Translations under genes and position numbers: made by a program | Source of the DNA: Haloarchaeobius salinus | Lineage (GTDB): Archaea > Halobacteriota > Halobacteria > Halobacteriales > Natrialbaceae | Assembly: GCF_024464185.1 (NCBI RefSeq) | Contig: NZ_JANHAU010000006.1 | Span: 62,001 to 126,000, forward strand | Direction: 5' to 3' | DNA: 64,000 bases | The notes under the pieces: model-generated | Told to the model about the DNA's origin: nothing | The model's input: the letters and a program-made list of their open reading frames with translations, nothing else | Databases searched by the model: none | In this document: one piece after another, positions 22,224 through 62,631 of the stretch | Position numbering within the stretch: the stretch's first letter is position 1 | Layout of the letters: every line of letters starts with the position of its first letter

Positions 22224-22523
22224 TTACGAAGACGCCTCTGCCGTCTCCATCCGGTCGACGTACTGCGCTTCCCACTCCTGTCTGGCGTCGATCTCGCGGC
22301 GACCGCGCCGGGTCAGTGTGTAGAAGTTCGTCCGCCGGTCGAGCTCGCCCTTCTCGACGAGGCCCTTGTCGACGAGCGTGTCGAGGTTCGGGTAGAGTCG
22401 ACCGTGGTGAATCTCGGATTCGTAGTAGTCTTCGAGCTCTTCCTTGATCGCCAGTCCGTGGGGGTCGTCGAGCCCCGCAATCACGTACAACAGGTCCCGC
22501 TGGAACCCTGTAAGGTCGTACAT
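22224..22523 (-). CDS. PadR family transcriptional regulator
   Basis: A 99-residue winged-helix regulator of the PadR family: LTGFQRDLLYVIAGLDDPHG, LAIKEELEDYYESEIHHGRLYPNLDTLVDKGLVEKGELDRRTNFYTLTRRG. The recognition helix (HHGRLYPNLDTLVDKGLV) and wing are complete; the C-terminal dimerisation helix is short, as in haloarchaeal PadR proteins. It faces the CNNM-type transporter gene and the 291-nt spacer between them carries two adjacent inverted repeats, so the pair may be co-regulated. Confidence 0.92.
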   Translation of the reverse strand: MYDLTGFQRDLLYVIAGLDDPHGLAIKEELEDYYESEIHHGRLYPNLDTLVDKGLVEKGELDRRTNFYTLTRRGRREIDARQEWEAQYVDRMETAEASS

Positions 22524-22589
22524 AGTAATACAGAAGTATCCCGAGAAAATGAGTGTTTTGTTTCCTGAATCGATGTGGCCGATTCGGTT

Positions 22590-22608
22590 TCGGTGTCTTC
22601 AACACCGA
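22590..22608. repeat. 7-bp-arm inverted repeat (first of a pair)
   Basis: TCGGTGT and ACACCGA surround a 5-nt loop. It lies 67-85 nt upstream of the PadR start and is only 2 nt from the next palindrome. Confidence 0.65.
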
Positions 22609-22610
22609 GA

Positions 22611-22626
22611 GGATTCGACCGAATCC
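22611..22626. repeat. 7-bp-arm inverted repeat (second of a pair)
   Basis: GGATTCG and CGAATCC surround a 2-nt centre, giving a near-perfect 16-bp palindrome. It is compact and suited to a dimeric repressor such as PadR, though it does not match the classic ATGT-N8-ACAT PadR site. Confidence 0.65.
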
Positions 22627-41024: not shown

Positions 41025-42731
41025 CTACGACGACTCCTCGCGGCCCGTCAGTGACGCGACGGCCTCGCGTTCACGGGCCGTGGCGACGACCGACCGGATC
41101 GAGGACTCGTCGAGCCGGTACTCCCCGGTCGACTTCTCGCGGGCGACGACGCCCTCGCGCCGTAGCTCGGTGAGCGCGCTCTGGATGCGGTCGCTGCCGG
41201 TGTCGACGAACGTCGCGAGGTCGCTCACCGTCAGCGGAGCCTTCTCGCCGAGCACCGTGACGACCTCCCAGGTGTAGCGCTCGTTGCAGTCCGCCTCCCG
41301 GATGGCCCGCTCGACACGCTCGACGACGGGCTCGGTCTCGACGAGCTCGGTCACGTCGGCGGTCGCGTCGAGCTGTGCCTCGGCCGTCGCCTCGTCGCTC
41401 CGACCGGACCGCCGACGCTGGAGCTGTTCGACGGCCGTCTCGAGGAACGCGATGCGGTCGCGCTGGTCCCGGACGATGTCGGCGTCCACGTCGCCCCCGC
41501 GCAGCGACTCCGCCTCCTCGCGCAGGCTCTCGTTGCGTTTCTCCAGGCGCTCGACCTCGCCCTCCAGCTCGCGCACCCGTCGGCGGAGCTCGTTGCGCTC
41601 GGCCTCGATCTCGGCGTTGGTCTGGTCCTCGTCGTCCGCCTCGGACACGTCGTCGGTCGCCGCATCGCCGGTCGGGAGCGTCGACTGCTCGCCGGGCGTC
41701 TCGATGCCGGTGTTGCCCGCCATCGCGTCGGCCATCTGCTTGGCGGCGTTCGAGATGTCCTTCGCGCGTTCGAGCTCCTCCTCCAGCGTCTCGATGCGCT
41801 GTTCCTTCTTCTCGACCTCGGCCTCCAGCTCGAGGATGCGGCTCTCGCGCCGGGACTTCTCCTCGCTGATCTCCTCCAGGTCGTCGACCAGGGAGTCGCT
41901 GACCGACTTCAGCTCGGGCCGCTCGAAGTCGTCGAGTCCCGGCGTCGCGCCGGCGTCGAACGTGCGCTTGCGCCGGAACTGCACCGTCTCGACCTCCTGT
42001 TCGGCCCAGTCGGACATCATGAACGCCTGTCCCGCGTCGAGGTCGGTGACGCGCGCCTCGTACTCGCTGCCCAGGATGCGTCCGACAACGTTCGTGTCGT
42101 TCTCCCAGGTGAGCCGGTGCCAGACCAGCCAGTTCGCCTGCGTGATGAAGTCCTTCTTCACGTCGGCCGGGCGCTGGCTGATGCCGACGATGCCCAGCCC
42201 GTGCTTGCGCCCGCGCTTGCCGATCTTGATGAGCATCTTCCCCGTCTCGTCCATCCCACCGCCCTCGGGGATGTACTCGTGGACCTCCTCGACGACGAGC
42301 AGGAACGGCTTCTTCAGCTTCTTCTCCTTGGCGAACAGGTGCTTCGCGGTCTCGAGGATGAGCTCGTTCGCCTGCCCCTCGTCGAGATAGCCCGACACGT
42401 CGAGGATGATGGGGACGTTCTCCTCCAGTGCGAGGTTCGCCATCCGCTCGGCGTGCTCGGGCGCGATCTGGATGTCGCACTCCTCGTCCGCACCCGCGTG
42501 CAGCAGCTCGTACTCCTCCTTCAGCCCGTAGTACTCGCCGTCCGTGTCGACGATGAGCAGCGGGAAGCCCGCCTCGAGCAGCTCCTCGGCGATGACGCTC
42601 GCCGAGTTCGACTTCCCCGACCCGGACTTGCCCGTCACGAAGCCACGGCCGGTCAGCAGTTCCACGACGGGTACCTCCACGGCCGTCCCGTCAACCGTCT
42701 CTCCCAGTACGATCTCTTTCGTCTCGCTCAT
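41025..42731 (-). CDS. HerA-like ATPase with coiled coil and C-terminal winged helix
   Basis: A 568-residue ATPase. The RecA-like core (about 1-290) has Walker A FVTGKSGSGKSNSA (34-42 region), Walker B FLLVVEEVHEYIPE and the sensor-like IVGISQRPADV, as in HerA/DUF87 proteins that pump DNA. A long coiled coil (about 280-460; RRESRILELEAEVEKKEQRI, RRRVRELEGEVERLEKRNES) follows, and the last ~90 residues form a winged helix (VVTVLGEKAPLTVSDLATFVDTGSDRIQSALTELRREGVV). Canonical HerA pairs with NurA and Mre11-Rad50; neither gene is nearby. The extra coiled coil and wHTH suggest a DNA-associated motor with its own targeting. The lipoprotein gene upstream, on the same strand, has 57 nt spacing. Confidence 0.88.
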   Translation of the reverse strand: MSETKEIVLGETVDGTAVEVPVVELLTGRGFVTGKSGSGKSNSASVIAEELLEAGFPLLIVDTDGEYYGLKEEYELLHAGADEECDIQIAPEHAERMANLALEENVPIILDVSGYLDEGQANELILETAKHLFAKEKKLKKPFLLVVEEVHEYIPEGGGMDETGKMLIKIGKRGRKHGLGIVGISQRPADVKKDFITQANWLVWHRLTWENDTNVVGRILGSEYEARVTDLDAGQAFMMSDWAEQEVETVQFRRKRTFDAGATPGLDDFERPELKSVSDSLVDDLEEISEEKSRRESRILELEAEVEKKEQRIETLEEELERAKDISNAAKQMADAMAGNTGIETPGEQSTLPTGDAATDDVSEADDEDQTNAEIEAERNELRRRVRELEGEVERLEKRNESLREEAESLRGGDVDADIVRDQRDRIAFLETAVEQLQRRRSGRSDEATAEAQLDATADVTELVETEPVVERVERAIREADCNERYTWEVVTVLGEKAPLTVSDLATFVDTGSDRIQSALTELRREGVVAREKSTGEYRLDESSIRSVVATAREREAVASLTGREESS

Positions 42732-44069: not shown

Positions 44070-44095
44070 GTTGTCCTGTCGTAACGACCCAGGGG

Positions 44096-44103
44096 TTATA
44101 AAG
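44096..44103 (-). promoter_or_regulatory. TATA box of the lipoprotein/HerA gene pair
   Basis: The reverse strand reads CTTTATAA 27-34 nt before the lipoprotein ATG. GGGGTTA (44092-44098) and TAACCCC (44128-44134) flank the region as an inverted repeat. Confidence 0.6.
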
Positions 44104-44316
44104 CATACTGTTATCTATTCACATAGGTAACCCCGTTATAGCGACGCTACCGACACGAACCGGCCGTTATCTGCCGCATCGGTCAGACAGCCCGACCTGT
44201 CACACTGCCGGCCATCGAACGAGCCGCGGCGTGCTGTCGACGGGCGACGCGTCGAACGACGTGTGTCGGGCGAGCAGACGGTGGAACAGACCGAGGTGAA
44301 TCGCGGTAGACGGGAC

Positions 44317-44557
44317 CTAGCGCTCCGGGGCGGCACCGCCGAACTCGAACGCGGACTCCGACGCCGGGGCCCGTTCGTCGGCGCGCTCGGCCAGTCTCTC
44401 GCCGAGCTCCTCGGCCTCGCGCTCGACCGCGGACGTACCAGCACCGGGGAGCTCCGTGCGGTCGGAGCTTCGAGGGCATCTTCCGAGTCGCGCCCTCATC
44501 CTCAAGCTCCTCGTGGGTGTCCGCGCGGACGGTCACGTACACCCCTTGCTCGAACAC
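44317..44557 (-). pseudogene. short frameshifted gene fragment
   Basis: The reverse strand opens with MFEQGVYVTVRADTHEELED and reads in one frame for about 35 residues. The coding signal then continues in another frame as GAGTSAVEREAEELGERLAE and ends at a TAG at 44317-44319. Both parts have the third-position bias of real haloarchaeal genes, and a one-base shift near 44455 would join them. The first part resembles a stretch I associate with conjugation-type (VirB4/TraC-like) ATPases, but that is only a recollection. It is probably a decayed remnant; a small intact protein from the first frame alone is less likely. Confidence 0.5.
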
Positions 44558-44655
44558 CTTCTACTACAAACACATATATAATTGTATGTTATAGGATATT
44601 TTTAACCAAGGCCAAATATTCACCAAATCCCAGTTCTCTGAAATACAAATCGAGG
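44558..44655. other. A/T-rich patch of about 100 bp
   Basis: The stretch contains long A/T runs such as CACATATATAATTGTATGTT, in sharp contrast to the G+C-rich surroundings. It lies between the gene remnant and a membrane-protein gene. It could be a strong promoter region or the edge of a foreign insertion. Confidence 0.7.
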
Positions 44656-45273
44656 ATGGCTGAAACGTCTTTCTCCGGCAGAAATCTTGATACCGGGTGC
44701 GGCCCAGTTACGGACGAGTTCCACGTGGGCGAACTGATACCACTCGTCGTCGCCGAGAACCTCCCCTGGTGGCTCGGTGCCCCCCTCGCACAGCTCCTGT
44801 TGCTGCTAGGGGGCATCGCCATCGAGAAGACCTACGTCAACCGTGTGACGCCGTTCACCGGTTCGATGGCGGTGTTCGTCCACGTGCTCGTCTCCGGGGA
44901 GTCCTCCATCTGGACCGGGCTCTATCTGGATCTGGGGCTGCTCCTCGGCCTGTTCGGTGTCTGGGCCTACGCGGAGAACATCGTCGTCAACAGACCGGAG
45001 TTCAAACTCCTGGCGTACTTCGCCTACGCCCCGCTGACGGTGATACTCGTCGTGCTCTTGCCGAGCTGGCTGCTGTTCCCCGCGATCATCGTCGGGGCGG
45101 TGGTGAACTTCAAGCTCGTCGAGGAGCTAGCGCCCGCGAAGCCGTACTACTTCGGCCATCCTGACGAGGAGCGCGACGAGGGTGGAGCCGACGTGGGCGA
45201 CATCATCACCGCCGTCAAGGAGCGCGTACACGACCTCCAGGAGACCGTCGAGGCCCAGCGCGAGGCGAGCTAG
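44656..45273 (+). CDS. multi-helix membrane protein of unknown function
   Basis: A 205-residue integral membrane protein starting at an ATG preceded by GAGG. Four hydrophobic segments are evident (PWWLGAPLAQLLLLLGGIAI, TGSMAVFVHVLVSGE, WTGLYLDLGLLLGLFGVWAY, LLAYFAYAPLTVILVVLLPS with FPAIIVGAVVNFKLV). The last ~60 residues are soluble and end with a helix (IITAVKERVHDLQETVEAQR). I do not recognise the family. The upstream A/T-rich patch and gene fragment suggest it belongs to an accessory region. Convergent with the BtrH-like gene, only 4 nt apart or overlapping. Confidence 0.7.
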   Translation: MAETSFSGRNLDTGCGPVTDEFHVGELIPLVVAENLPWWLGAPLAQLLLLLGGIAIEKTYVNRVTPFTGSMAVFVHVLVSGESSIWTGLYLDLGLLLGLFGVWAYAENIVVNRPEFKLLAYFAYAPLTVILVVLLPSWLLFPAIIVGAVVNFKLVEELAPAKPYYFGHPDEERDEGGADVGDIITAVKERVHDLQETVEAQREAS

Positions 45274-46268
45274 AGCCTGTCCAGCAGGCGTTCGTACAGT
45301 GCTTCCTCGCGGTCCGTGACCGCGAGCACCGCCTCGCTCGCGTCGTCGTATGCCTGCTGGCTCTCCGCGGGGTCGTCCGCGAGGCCGGCCTGCTTCAGGT
45401 GCCCGGCGACGGTTCCCCAGTCGTCGTCGATACCGTGGACCTCGGCGACGACCTCGTCGTCCACCGCGTCGAGTTCGGGCTGGATCTCGTCGATGAAGGG
45501 CGCGAAGAGACCGCGGAACGCGCTCCCGCCGGTCCCGCGCTTCTCGACGTTCTGGTACGCGAAACGGGTGCACCACTCCGCGTCCGGCAGGTCGGGCCAG
45601 TCGGGGAGCGAGCGGCCGAACACACGCATCCCCTCGAGCCCGTTCGTCGCGTCGCCCTTCCAGGTCATCGAACCGGGGTCCAGCATCGCCCGTGCTGTCG
45701 TCCGGAGACCGTCCCGGGCCGCGTCCGCGACCGACCGCGAGGGGTCGTCCATCGCGACCAGCCAGTCGTTCGTCAGCTCGCCGAAGAAGCCGTGTTCGGA
45801 GCCCATCGCAGCACGCAGGTTCTCGAGCGAGAGCCGCTTGAGGTCGTCGTGCTCGCTGTCGGCGAGCGTCACCGACGCCTCGTCGTAGTCGACGGCGACG
45901 ACGACGTGCGGACTGAAGTGGACGTCGGAGTCGTAGTAGGGGAGGTAGAAGATGTCGACGAACAGCAGGACCGGCCGGCCGGCGTCGAGGTGTGCGGTCA
46001 CGTCGTCCCACGCCGCTTCGAAGGACTGGTCCGACTCCCGTTCGACGGTGACGTCCAGGTGCTCGAAGAACGTCGTCTCCAGCCACGGCGTGCGCCCGAC
46101 GAACTGCTTCGACGGTCCCTCCTCGGACTCGATGAAGCTGAAGCCGAGTCCCGCGCCGATACCGAAGCACATCGGCTCGGTGAGCCCCCACCGCCGGTAC
46201 GTCGCCACGTCCGTCAGCGACGTGGAGCCGCAGTGTGCCCCCGCCGCGTGGTCGAATCCGTCCAACAT
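45270..46268 (-). CDS. BtrH-like protein (BtrH N-terminal plus DUF4872 domain)
   Basis: A 332-residue protein. Residues 1-~130 match the BtrH N-terminal domain: GFDHAAGAHCGSTSLTDVATY with the presumed nucleophile Cys13, then GIGAGLGFSFIESEEG. The rest matches DUF4872 (HLDAGRPVLLFVDIFYLPYY, SPHVVVAVDYDEASVTLADS, LSLENLRAAMGSEHG). BtrH of butirosin synthesis transfers an acyl chain from an acyl-carrier protein to an amine; C39-peptidase-like chemistry with Cys and His in the ...SPHVVVAVDYD segment is expected. No polyketide or NRPS genes are nearby, so the acyl donor is unclear. It is divergent from a lactonase-like gene. Confidence 0.82.
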   Translation of the reverse strand: MLDGFDHAAGAHCGSTSLTDVATYRRWGLTEPMCFGIGAGLGFSFIESEEGPSKQFVGRTPWLETTFFEHLDVTVERESDQSFEAAWDDVTAHLDAGRPVLLFVDIFYLPYYDSDVHFSPHVVVAVDYDEASVTLADSEHDDLKRLSLENLRAAMGSEHGFFGELTNDWLVAMDDPSRSVADAARDGLRTTARAMLDPGSMTWKGDATNGLEGMRVFGRSLPDWPDLPDAEWCTRFAYQNVEKRGTGGSAFRGLFAPFIDEIQPELDAVDDEVVAEVHGIDDDWGTVAGHLKQAGLADDPAESQQAYDDASEAVLAVTDREEALYERLLDRL

Positions 46269-46290
46269 GTCTCGACCGAGGATGCGGGGG

Positions 46291-46298
46291 TAAAAATC
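46291..46298 (-). promoter_or_regulatory. TATA-like box of the BtrH-like gene
   Basis: The reverse strand reads GATTTTTA 23-30 nt before the ATG, in the spacer shared with the divergent MBL gene. Confidence 0.6.
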
Positions 46299-46389
46299 GG
46301 TGCCGGAACGACACGACGCCGGCCGGGGACAGTCGCGGGCGACGCCCGTCGTCCCGAGCTTTGAGGACACTGGCACACCGAGTGAGGCT

Positions 46390-47178
46390 ATGGCCGACAT
46401 CTCGCTCACCCCGGTCCGGCGGGGCCGGCTCGTCGTCGACGAGGGCTACCTGTTCGAGGACGTTGGACTCGGGACGGCGTCGACGCCGGACCCGACCCAC
46501 GAGCGCGTCGCGTGTCCCGTCTACAACGTCGTCGTCGAGCACCCGGACGCGACCGTCCTCTGGGACACGGGCTCGCACCCCGACGCCGCCGACGGTCACT
46601 GGCCGGCAGCGATGTACGACGCGTTCACCCACGAGGGCTGCCGGCCGCTCGACGAGGACCTCGACGCGGCGGGCTACGACCTCGTCGACGTCGACGCCGT
46701 CGTCCAGAGCCACCTCCACCTCGACCACGCCGGCGGCCTGGGAGCGTTCGCGGGCACCGACGTTCCGGTCTACGTCCACCGCGAGGAGTTCGAGTTCGCG
46801 TGCGTCAGCGCGAGGACCGATGCGGGCGACGCCGCGTATCTCGCCGGCGACCTCGACCACGACCTGAACTGGCGGCTCGTCACCGGCGAGCGCTCCGCGC
46901 CCTTCCGCGACGTCGAACTCGTCCACCTGCCGGGGCACTCCCCCGGACTCGTCGGGACGGTGCTCTACCGCGAGTCGGACACCGTGATCCTGGCGGGAGA
47001 CGTGGGGTTCGTGGACGGGAACGTCGACGACCGACGCCCGATGGACGGCTCGCTGCTGTGGAGCAAGCGGGACTGGTTCGACAGCCTGGACCGGCTCGCC
47101 GACCTGCGCCGCCGGCACGACGCGACAGTGGTGACCGGCCACGACCCCGACGCACCCGCCCTGCTCGAATCACTCTGA
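46390..47178 (+). CDS. metallo-beta-lactamase fold hydrolase resembling N-acyl homoserine lactonases
   Basis: A 262-residue dinuclear-zinc hydrolase. The HxHxDH motif is SHLHLDHAGG (H108, H110, D112, H113), with later ligands in LPGHSPGLVG (His near 183), ILAGDVGFVD and VVTGHDP. The order, the 'CPVYNVVVEHP' start and the DTG turn (LWDTGSHPD) are like AiiA-type quorum-quenching lactonases; generic MBL enzymes also share them. It is divergent from the BtrH-like gene, which handles acyl chains, so an acyl-amide or lactone substrate is plausible but unproven. The ATG at 46390 fits the spacer. Confidence 0.85.
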   Translation: MADISLTPVRRGRLVVDEGYLFEDVGLGTASTPDPTHERVACPVYNVVVEHPDATVLWDTGSHPDAADGHWPAAMYDAFTHEGCRPLDEDLDAAGYDLVDVDAVVQSHLHLDHAGGLGAFAGTDVPVYVHREEFEFACVSARTDAGDAAYLAGDLDHDLNWRLVTGERSAPFRDVELVHLPGHSPGLVGTVLYRESDTVILAGDVGFVDGNVDDRRPMDGSLLWSKRDWFDSLDRLADLRRRHDATVVTGHDPDAPALLESL

Positions 47179-58630: not shown

Positions 58631-58719
58631 GTTTCTTTCGCCAGGGCGGACGTCAGCTGACAGAGAGCGAACGAACTGTGTGTACATCCAGAAATCCGGG
58701 GAACTACTGGAACACAACC

Positions 58720-58729
58720 ACTTATAAGT
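58720..58729. repeat. 10-bp perfect palindrome ACTTATAAGT
   Basis: A perfect A/T-rich palindrome, followed after one base by ATATAAGT. It could be a dimer-binding site 55-65 nt upstream of the small reading frame at 58785. Confidence 0.55.
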
Positions 58730-58750
58730 AATATAAGTACACGATAGGAA

Positions 58751-58758
58751 ATTTTAAT
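58751..58758 (+). promoter_or_regulatory. TATA-like box of a leaderless small frame
   Basis: ATTTTAAT lies 27-34 nt before the ATG at 58785, an exact promoter-to-start spacing for a leaderless transcript. Confidence 0.55.
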
Positions 58759-58784
58759 ACCCCGTACTGTGAACGTCGATACAC

Positions 58785-58898
58785 ATGACGCGTACCCACG
58801 TCGTGCGGAACGAGGCTCGCACTGGTGGCGACCACCGGTACGCCGCACACGGCGACAGGCCGTCCACCACCGTGACGGGTACGCCGCTTTCTCGCTGA
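58785..58898 (+). CDS. candidate 37-residue basic small protein
   Basis: A short frame begins MTRTHVVRNEARTGGDHRYA and ends with ...TGTPLSR. Its only support is the strong, well-placed promoter and the lack of another gene for that promoter within 200 nt; the next start codon is at 59030. Basic Arg/His-rich sequence is unusual in this acidic proteome. It could equally be the 5' part of a leader for the gene downstream. Confidence 0.3.
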   Translation: MTRTHVVRNEARTGGDHRYAAHGDRPSTTVTGTPLSR

Positions 58899-61203: not shown

Positions 61204-62631
61204 TCAGCGCCGGTAGTGTCGCTCCCACTTCGGCACCGACCGTCTGTAGAGCCCGATGCCGACGCCCCCGACCACGACGCCGCCGACGCCGAGTGCGACC
61301 AGCAGCTCGGTCGAGACGGGCGCGAGCACGAGGCCGACGACGAGGATGGGGACGAGCACGACCGCCAGCGCGAGCCCGAAGCCGGCGAACAGCACCGTAT
61401 CGAACAGGAACTCGTTGGGGTCGAAGCCAGCCAGGGCGACGGTCACGCCGAACAGGTAGAGCGCGACCCCCACGAGCAGCACCAGCCCGACGACGGCCTC
61501 CGGGAGCCGTGCGCCCTGCCAGCCGACCGCGAGCAGGAAGTACCCGACGCAGGTCGGGATACCGAGCACGAGGAACGCCCGGAACTTCGCCCGGACCACG
61601 TCGGCGACGGAGACGGGGTAGATCTGGTAGCTCGACACGTCGTCGTACATCGTGATCCAGTTGTAGGTGGTGAAGGCCGAGAGCGCGAGGATGGCCCCGA
61701 ACGAGATGCCGGTCGAGGGTTCGAGTCCGGTGATGGTCTCGGCGAGGTCGATGAGCAGCCAGCTGACCGCGAAGAGGATGCCGCCGGAGAACAGCACCTT
61801 GCCGAGGCCGCCGCTGGAGCGCTGGACGTCGAGCAGCGTCTTCACGGTCAGGCCGTCGGCGTCGAACGGGAGTCGGGCCTGCCAGCGCGGGAACGTCCGC
61901 CCGGCGGTCCGGGCCGCCTTCTCGTAGCTGGTGTCGTAGACGGCGATGCCGACGGCCGCGAGCAGCGGGATCGGCGCGAGTGCGACGAGGACCTCGAGGG
62001 CGGTCCCCCCGTCGAACAGCCCGTACGGCGTGAACCGGACGAAGTCGACGCCGGAGACGTAGGCGAGCCCCGCCCCGGCGGCGAGCACGAGCAGGAGCAG
62101 GCGGCCCGACGACCCGCGCGTCGACAGTCCGATGGCCGCGAAGGTGATGGTGACGCCGAGCAGGAACATCGCGGTCGTGGTCGCCCACGCCGTCGGGATC
62201 GCGAGCAGCGCGAGGTCGCCGGACGCGACGGCCGGCGTGAAGCCGACGGCGATGGGTAGCAGGAAGAGGACGGCGTAGTACACCGCGTCCTTCAGCAGGA
62301 AGACGCCGAGCAATCGGCGCTGGGACACCGGCAGGGTACGCGCGCTGAACACCAGCATCGTCACGTCGCCGAGCACGTCCCGCATGGCGTCCTGCCCGAC
62401 GAAGCCGGTCGAGCCGGTCCGCAGGCCGAAGAAGAGCGCGAGCCCGTGGACACCCGCGACGACGGCGGCGATGTCGGTGCCGGTCGTCGTCAGCAGGTAC
62501 ACCGCCCCCGAGGTCAGCAGCGCGACGAGGACGGGGAACGCGCCGAACCGGCTCCCGCCGAACAGCTCGCTGTGGAGTCGCCACTCCTCCCGGAGCATCT
62601 CGACGAACAGCCGGCGGTTCAGGCTAGTCAT
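61204..62631 (-). CDS. ABC-2-type transporter permease
   Basis: A 475-residue permease with at least ten hydrophobic segments (GAFPVLVALLTSGAVYLLTT, LFFGLRTGSTGF, AVYYAVLFLLPIAVGF, ATTTAMFLLGVTITFAAIGL, LLLLVLAAGAGLAY, LLAAVGIAVYD, VLFSGGILFAVSWLLIDLAE, AVVGLVLLVGVALYLFGVTV, LFAGFGLALAVVLVPILVVG, LLVALGVGGVVVGGVGIGLY). A cytoplasmic loop lies in the middle (DADGLTVKTLLDVQRSSGGL). It overlaps the end of the ATPase gene by 8 nt, so the two form one exporter. Substrate unknown. Confidence 0.9.
   Translation of the reverse strand: MTSLNRRLFVEMLREEWRLHSELFGGSRFGAFPVLVALLTSGAVYLLTTTGTDIAAVVAGVHGLALFFGLRTGSTGFVGQDAMRDVLGDVTMLVFSARTLPVSQRRLLGVFLLKDAVYYAVLFLLPIAVGFTPAVASGDLALLAIPTAWATTTAMFLLGVTITFAAIGLSTRGSSGRLLLLVLAAGAGLAYVSGVDFVRFTPYGLFDGGTALEVLVALAPIPLLAAVGIAVYDTSYEKAARTAGRTFPRWQARLPFDADGLTVKTLLDVQRSSGGLGKVLFSGGILFAVSWLLIDLAETITGLEPSTGISFGAILALSAFTTYNWITMYDDVSSYQIYPVSVADVVRAKFRAFLVLGIPTCVGYFLLAVGWQGARLPEAVVGLVLLVGVALYLFGVTVALAGFDPNEFLFDTVLFAGFGLALAVVLVPILVVGLVLAPVSTELLVALGVGGVVVGGVGIGLYRRSVPKWERHYRR

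Follow-up and report, generated by a model that had tools for sequence, protein, structure and literature searches.

Two ends of a type IV secretion system-like operon, probably an old resident of a haloarchaeal locus, remain in Haloarchaeobius salinus

The stretch analysed here (the window) comprises 64,000 nucleotides of Haloarchaeobius salinus (NZ_JANHAU010000006.1, positions 62,001 to 126,000) and sits in contig C6 of a 3.85 Mb genome assembled into 17 contigs. At the locus of interest a lipoprotein-type gene (minus strand), a decayed gene fragment, an A/T-rich patch, a gene for a membrane protein (plus strand) and a gene for a BtrH-like enzyme (minus strand) follow each other from left to right (Table 1). 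A first-pass annotation, made from the sequence alone, had read the last four as a cluster typical of past horizontal transfer or of an insertion scar. The features themselves are all present. The fragment is indeed frameshifted. The A/T-rich DNA, about 100 bp, has 31% G+C at 44551-44650 compared with 69.3% for the window, the lowest of all 100-base stretches at a step of 10 bases. The membrane protein has no significant family in Pfam or NCBIfam, and the enzyme matches both Pfam domains expected of it (BtrH_N, E 5.9e-34; DUF4872, E 1.2e-24). Comparison of the window genome (G000) with five further Haloarchaeobius genomes (G001-G005, among them strain FL176, G004, and H. iranensis EB21/IBRC-M 10013, G005) and two of Halorubellus (Halorubellus salinus GX3, G011, and G047) suggests a partly different history for them.

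In H. iranensis the same two border genes are separated by ~7.9 kb carrying six open, same-direction open reading frames (ORFs), here opA to opF, of 85, 145, 664, 395, 372 and 792 amino acids (aa) respectively. The decayed fragment of the window matches the last of these, which encodes a VirB4-type ATPase. Codons 745-792 of opF match 44323-44475 (G000:C6:106323-106475) with 69% identity (tblastn, E 1.7e-9), and codons 262-295 match G000:C6:106456-106563 with 62% identity (tblastn, E 1.8e-4; blastn, E 2e-13) and one internal stop. Both pieces lie on the minus strand in different frames and match the same protein, and their order, their orientation and the adjoining flank agree with the intact operon. 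The 3' piece and its flank align with H. iranensis at the nucleotide level (blastn, E 4e-54), the alignment stopping at 44451. An internal deletion appears to have joined the two opF pieces, with the joint at about 44451 to 44463. The A/T-rich patch in turn aligns with the DNA that precedes opA in H. iranensis and with its counterpart in a second genome with a relic (G002), and less well with that of Halorubellus. Judged by these alignments, the patch is the surviving upstream (putative promoter/operator) region of the lost operon. That it might be inserted foreign filler was considered and is ruled out by the same alignments.

Table 1. Features of the locus in the window (positions in the window; strand given as + or -, or a point where none applies).
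Feature	Position	Strand	Remarks
Lipoprotein-type gene, 426 aa	42789..44069	-	lipobox read from sequence; left border of locus, conserved
Spacer, lipoprotein gene to relic	44070..44316	.	blastn-alignable to H. iranensis and G002, partly to G004
Relic of opF (VirB4-type ATPase) 3' end, codons 745-792 and stop	44317..44462	-	tblastn and blastn
Relic of opF codons 262-295, fused to 3' piece	44456..44563	-	tblastn and blastn
A/T-rich patch	44558..44660	.	33% G+C; between relic and membrane-protein gene
Membrane protein, 182 aa from GTG 44725 (205 aa if ATG 44656)	44725..45273	+	no named family
BtrH_N and DUF4872 enzyme, 332 aa	45270..46268	-	predicted cysteine amidotransferase/acyltransferase; C13, H121, D137

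Of the eight genomes, only that of H. iranensis, one of the six of Haloarchaeobius, has the operon intact at this site. Three others have lost it, each through a deletion with its own breakpoints: the window genome; G002, which keeps opF codons 640-792 (83%), joined at codon 640 to a position shortly before the start of opA, where the two alignments overlap by ~10 bases; and strain FL176, from which the whole operon and the front of the membrane-protein gene are gone. Since the window genome and G002 each lack parts of opF kept by the other, the deletions were at least partly independent. The codon-position comparisons, which throughout are small raw counts without formal statistics, bear on selection and decay. 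Between H. iranensis opF and the G002 relic we count 12, 13 and 36 differences of 148 at codon positions 1, 2 and 3, and this third-position excess suggests long selection before loss. Between the relics of the window genome and G002 the counts are 3, 12 and 9 (50-51 sites each), whereas the same pair of genomes gives 13, 11 and 52 of 333 for the BtrH-like gene and 8, 4 and 22 of 182 for the membrane-protein gene; the relics, without the third-position excess of these neighbours, therefore point to neutral decay in the window. The idea that opF is intact in the organism and was broken by sequencing or assembly is vanishingly improbable: the assembly is in many contigs, but an artefactual gap would have to hide ~7 kb within one of them, the genome has no opA or opD match and only distant copies of opF (36-39%) and opE (24-29%) elsewhere, and the drift between the relics lacks a third-position excess. 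The two distant VirB4 copies lie on other contigs of the window genome (L107, G000:C9 29749-31581; L108, G000:C7 29539-31464).

The products of the intact operon are, from opA to opF, regulator-like, a small membrane protein, of secreted or anchored type, VirB6, VirB3/VirB4-N-like and a VirB4 ATPase. OpD carries the VirB6-type domain PF19590 TrbL_3 (E 3.2e-56). OpF matches CagE_TrbE_VirB just over the curated cut-off (E 1.1e-4), a VirB4-like NCBIfam model below that model's cut-off (E 9e-37) and the solved VirB4-like protein 4ag5 in the PDB (E 1.2e-7), and its Walker A motif reads GDVGSGKS. As opE-like and opF-like regions share one frame of ~1,150-1,220 residues in some haloarchaea (G015, G000:C7), opE is probably the VirB3/VirB4-N part. 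Our assignments of opA as ribbon-helix-helix-like and of opB as a pilin are guesses from sequence; a homologue of opB in locus L155 gives a weak TrbC/VirB2 match, below cut-off (E 0.0093). A PHROGs scan of opA-opF and the membrane protein returned just two hits, both weak, among them a match of opF with a terminase family (E 9e-5). Because of the VirB4 and VirB6 homology, we suggest that the H. iranensis operon probably encodes a channel in the membrane through which the VirB4 ATPase would drive DNA or protein across the envelope. No match to a coupling ATPase (VirD4-like or type IV coupling protein-like) was found within 16 kb around the H. iranensis copy, and opA-opF, beyond which no gene was recognised in the interval flanked by the border genes, have no Pfam match to a relaxase or integrase. 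According to available passages of PMC3158045, little is known of archaeal relaxases.

Very likely, in our view, a six-gene operon resembling a type IV secretion system (T4SS) resided here before Haloarchaeobius and Halorubellus split, and the fragment and the patch represent its two ends. It would have been lost by repeated, partly independent deletions, and remains intact in H. iranensis. The genes for the membrane protein and the BtrH-like enzyme would be neighbours of greater age that are maintained separately. The age of residence is suggested by Halorubellus. In both of its genomes a lone opA (L052:7851-8084, L119:8835-9068) lies between the membrane-protein and lipoprotein genes, in the same place and orientation, and the pair differs at 5, 2 and 19 sites over 78 codons (positions 1, 2 and 3), apparently under purifying selection. 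The opA sequences of Halorubellus and H. iranensis form a clade with support 1.0 in a tree of 13 sequences. Across the order, 90 of 392 genomes have a match to opA; with the G047 sequence as query, likeness is 78-100% for the three copies at this locus and 56-57% for the next best. The shared site and the opA clade suggest vertical descent, and a single arrival before the split of the two genera, followed by losses, is probably the simplest history.

In all eight genomes the order lipoprotein gene, membrane-protein gene, BtrH-like gene is kept, with or without the operon, and the lipoprotein gene adjoins the locus in G001-G005, G011 and G047. This bears directly on the view of the locus as one foreign island, in which a single horizontal transfer would have brought the relic, the A/T-rich DNA and the genes for the membrane protein and the BtrH-like enzyme; we judge it very unlikely. 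The BtrH-like gene is patchy in the family, being found in 24 of 125 genomes and 11 of 29 genera (including 6/6 Haloarchaeobius and 2/2 Halorubellus), and is perhaps an old import, and both codon score and G+C are lower in the membrane-protein gene than in the genes around it. However, distant homologues of the membrane protein in three loci of ~14 kb each (L056-L058) had neither BtrH nor operon genes found beside them, and the BtrH-like gene is native to the window in G+C, third-position G+C (GC3) and codon usage. A single transferred island was rejected because the outgroups keep the neighbours without the operon. The BtrH-like gene itself, which the first-pass annotation had taken as transferred, gives a tree (22 sequences) in which ((G000,G002),(G004,G005)) is joined by (G001,G003) at 88/90 and then by Halorubellus, in agreement with vertical descent in the eight genomes. 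Mobile-type DNA was rightly suspected, but what stands of the proposed scar is the fragment, a remnant of a plasmid-associated family of T4SS-like operons, together with the patch; the membrane protein and the BtrH-like gene lie outside it. The composition change is real in the patch, but belongs to the operon's own upstream region. Within the conserved arrangement the BtrH-like gene is intact, the membrane-protein gene is broken in G004 (by the deletion of its front) and in G005 (by a stop near its start), and only the decayed gene departs from it widely.

Relatives of the operon are common on haloarchaeal plasmids, where they keep the order opA-opB-opC-opD-opE-opF with an opF 68-74% identical to that of H. 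iranensis; examples are Halorubrum hochsteinianum plasmid unnamed1 and Haloferax lucentense pSVX82-3, with a partial operon in Halobacterium pNRC200, and RefSeq names these relatives 'VirB4 family type IV secretion system protein'. In PLSDB, 479 records match opF, many of them bacterial, and two further family members lie elsewhere in the G003 genome. Together with the possibility that the locus is on a secondary replicon in some genomes, this abundance would fit separate insertions of related plasmid operons at the site in the lineages of H. iranensis, the window and Halorubellus, followed by decay. We regard such a history as quite unlikely, since the three lineages share site, orientation and sub-lineage. 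Moreover, none of the 479 matches exceeds 80% identity (the 50 listed are haloarchaeal, at 70-74%, the best listed being 73.6%), none of the ORFs flanked by the border genes in H. iranensis was recognised as an integrase, and no direct repeat joins the two flanks of the operon among the 20 repeat families listed of 28. None of the direct repeats listed lies inside L047:5200-5600 or L047:12900-13250.

Several observations weigh against long residence of one T4SS-like operon at a chromosomal site. OpB and opC have no significant family match (Pfam, NCBIfam, PHROGs), and the H. iranensis genome is a draft of ~70 contigs. The deletions in the window genome and G002 may share a first step, and G001 and G003 have no trace of the operon at the site, where total loss would have to be presumed. 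The H. iranensis and Halorubellus opA are 76-78% alike, more than the neighbouring genes are (window versus Halorubellus: membrane protein 52-56%, BtrH-like 55-57%, lipoprotein 39-40%), which could reflect a transfer of later date to this position; a short protein under constraint would give the same likeness. The placement of H. iranensis opE plus opF in their own tree has support of 0.165. As for the replicon, G047:C4 has no transfer RNA gene (tRNA) over 340 of its 341 kb, G001:C2 (675 kb) has one cluster of five (L239:16859-18674) and none other, and none of the tRNAs listed falls on the contigs that carry the locus in G003 and G011, so that G001, G003, G011 and G047 may have it on a secondary replicon. 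Locus contigs of G000, G002, G004 and G005 do carry tRNAs, that of H. iranensis being 254 kb long, with a tRNA and with neighbours common to the window, and a chromosomal position can be taken as secure only in the H. iranensis group. Of 54 window ORFs, 20 on G001:C2 and 13 on G047:C4 have a match of at least 50% that covers 60% of the ORF; these contigs thus share the region at large, and their replicon is still doubtful.

The intact operon differs from its plasmid relatives in gene content and position. It forms its own branch in the tree, and lacks the lipoprotein gene that the plasmid operons have between opC and opD and the coupling-type ATPase and primase that they have after opF. Of 17 close operons (L089-L105), 16 have a coupling-type ATPase after opF and 15 contain the lipoprotein gene (pDC). 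In a wider family sample of 20 loci (G012 and G010 overlap earlier loci), such an ATPase follows opF in six (L154, L166, L169, L171-L173), the contig ends in L165, and the remaining 13 have none after opF (L155-L164, L167, L168, L170), two of them (L167, L168) with a distant match (29-32%) elsewhere in the stretch. In 11 of these 13 (L155, L157-L162, L164, L167, L168, L170), opF is followed by a related protein of ~390 aa; the one tested, of L170, has an NrS-1 polymerase HBD domain, and these 11 operons are likely to be integrated elements. Absence of the ATPase alone is therefore no proof of domestication, and the 13 operons weaken a domestication reading.

VirB4 homologues on archaeal plasmids and chromosomes, often with a coupling protein and with few known relaxases, were reported in 2011 (PMC3158045, available passages). 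By description rather than by sequence, the closest known counterparts are the Ced/Ted DNA-exchange systems of Thermoproteota, which, in the accessible parts of PMC9905601, combine VirB4 and VirB6 homologues with a small membrane protein in a chromosomal locus, as here; here, the host is a haloarchaeon and the pilin role of opB is guessed. The lack of coupling ATPase and primase in the H. iranensis copy recalls such domesticated systems. The pR1SE-type plasmid-vesicle plasmids, set beside it by description, are haloarchaeal and also encode a VirB4-like ATPase; their vesicle proteins have no reported similarity to conjugation proteins, nor is a VirB6 cluster reported, in the available text of PMC10818511. 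An ancestor of Haloarchaeobius and Halorubellus might have captured a plasmid-type T4SS, without its coupling ATPase and primase, for cellular DNA exchange or secretion, a haloarchaeal counterpart of Ced/Ted that was long selected, repeatedly lost and, in Halorubellus, re-used as opA alone. We put this forward tentatively and consider it doubtful, the uncertain replicon in four genomes lowering its odds further. We found no openly licensed paper linking CedB with Halobacteria, and the available text of the openly licensed literature found does not describe the locus (PMC9259645, PMC10818511, PMC4158269, PMC9905601, PMC3158045, PMC12857230, PMC10318531).

Matches to the membrane protein occur in 15 of 41 genomes searched, its own included. 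Similarity among homologues mostly starts near GTG 44725, which may therefore be the true start rather than ATG 44656. Its AlphaFold2 (AF2) model is poor, with a predicted local distance difference test score (pLDDT) of 65.5. Its gene is convergent with the BtrH-like gene, the two stop codons overlapping in a palindromic CTAG at 45270-45273.

The BtrH-like protein has no PDB match by sequence. Its AF2 model (pLDDT 92.6) shows a papain-like domain and a C-terminal helical domain, the papain-like relationship of BtrH_N being stated in available parts of PMC10318531. Foldseek matches the model to AziU3 (E 6.7e-12), and near full-length fold matches to the model were obtained for CtaG (VIA Z 24.0 over 292 residues, root-mean-square deviation (rmsd) 3.7), CcbD (Z 23.1) and AziU3 (Z 21-22), at 14-18% sequence identity; the other rows of the fold comparison that we examined cover the papain-like or the helical half only, except one at rmsd 12. 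An alignment of 17 sequences shows no variation at C13, H121 and D137, and the spacing of 16 from H to D equals that of CtaG, whose variants C11/H128/D144 appear in PDB titles. CtaG and CcbD act on carrier-bound intermediates, and a peptidyl carrier protein (PCP) complex is named in the titles of CcbD PDB entries. With this modelled fold as a guide, the enzyme most likely uses a Cys-His-Asp triad to pass an acyl or aminoacyl group from a thioester (on a carrier protein or similar) to an amine. It is not a DarH equivalog (NCBIfam NF053550, 98.4 bits versus a cut-off of 300). No carrier-protein or peptide-synthetase gene was recognised among the neighbours searched against Pfam, and nothing found at the locus supports the link to aminoglycosides for which bacterial BtrH homologues are best known. 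When we clustered 18 neighbourhoods of the gene (called in 16, and missed by the ORF caller in L054 and L183), an AMP-binding-type protein (cluster 8) was seen near BtrH in only four, from one other genus (L053, L180, L181, L186). Its domain was checked for L053 (L053:6919-8199), and this neighbour hints at a partner for acyl activation.

Elsewhere in the window, the lipoprotein has no Pfam family and matches NCBIfam CystProtLapG only at E 0.02, and next to its gene, at 41025-42731, lies a gene for a HerA-type ATPase with a long coiled coil, whose G001 homologue (75%) is on the same contig as the locus, ~90 kb away. The only other 100-base dips to at most 45% G+C are at 22501-22620 and 58651-58810. 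Searches of the window returned no Rfam family and no tRNA gene.

The copy in the window is in itself an ordinary pseudogene scar. Together with the lone opA, however, it would set a lower bound on how long a T4SS-like operon has been present at one haloarchaeal locus, where the operon is seen eroding in several lineages. The comparison also pinpoints an intact copy without an adjoining coupling protein in a named species, H. iranensis, and one genus, Halorubellus, in which opA alone has apparently been kept by selection.

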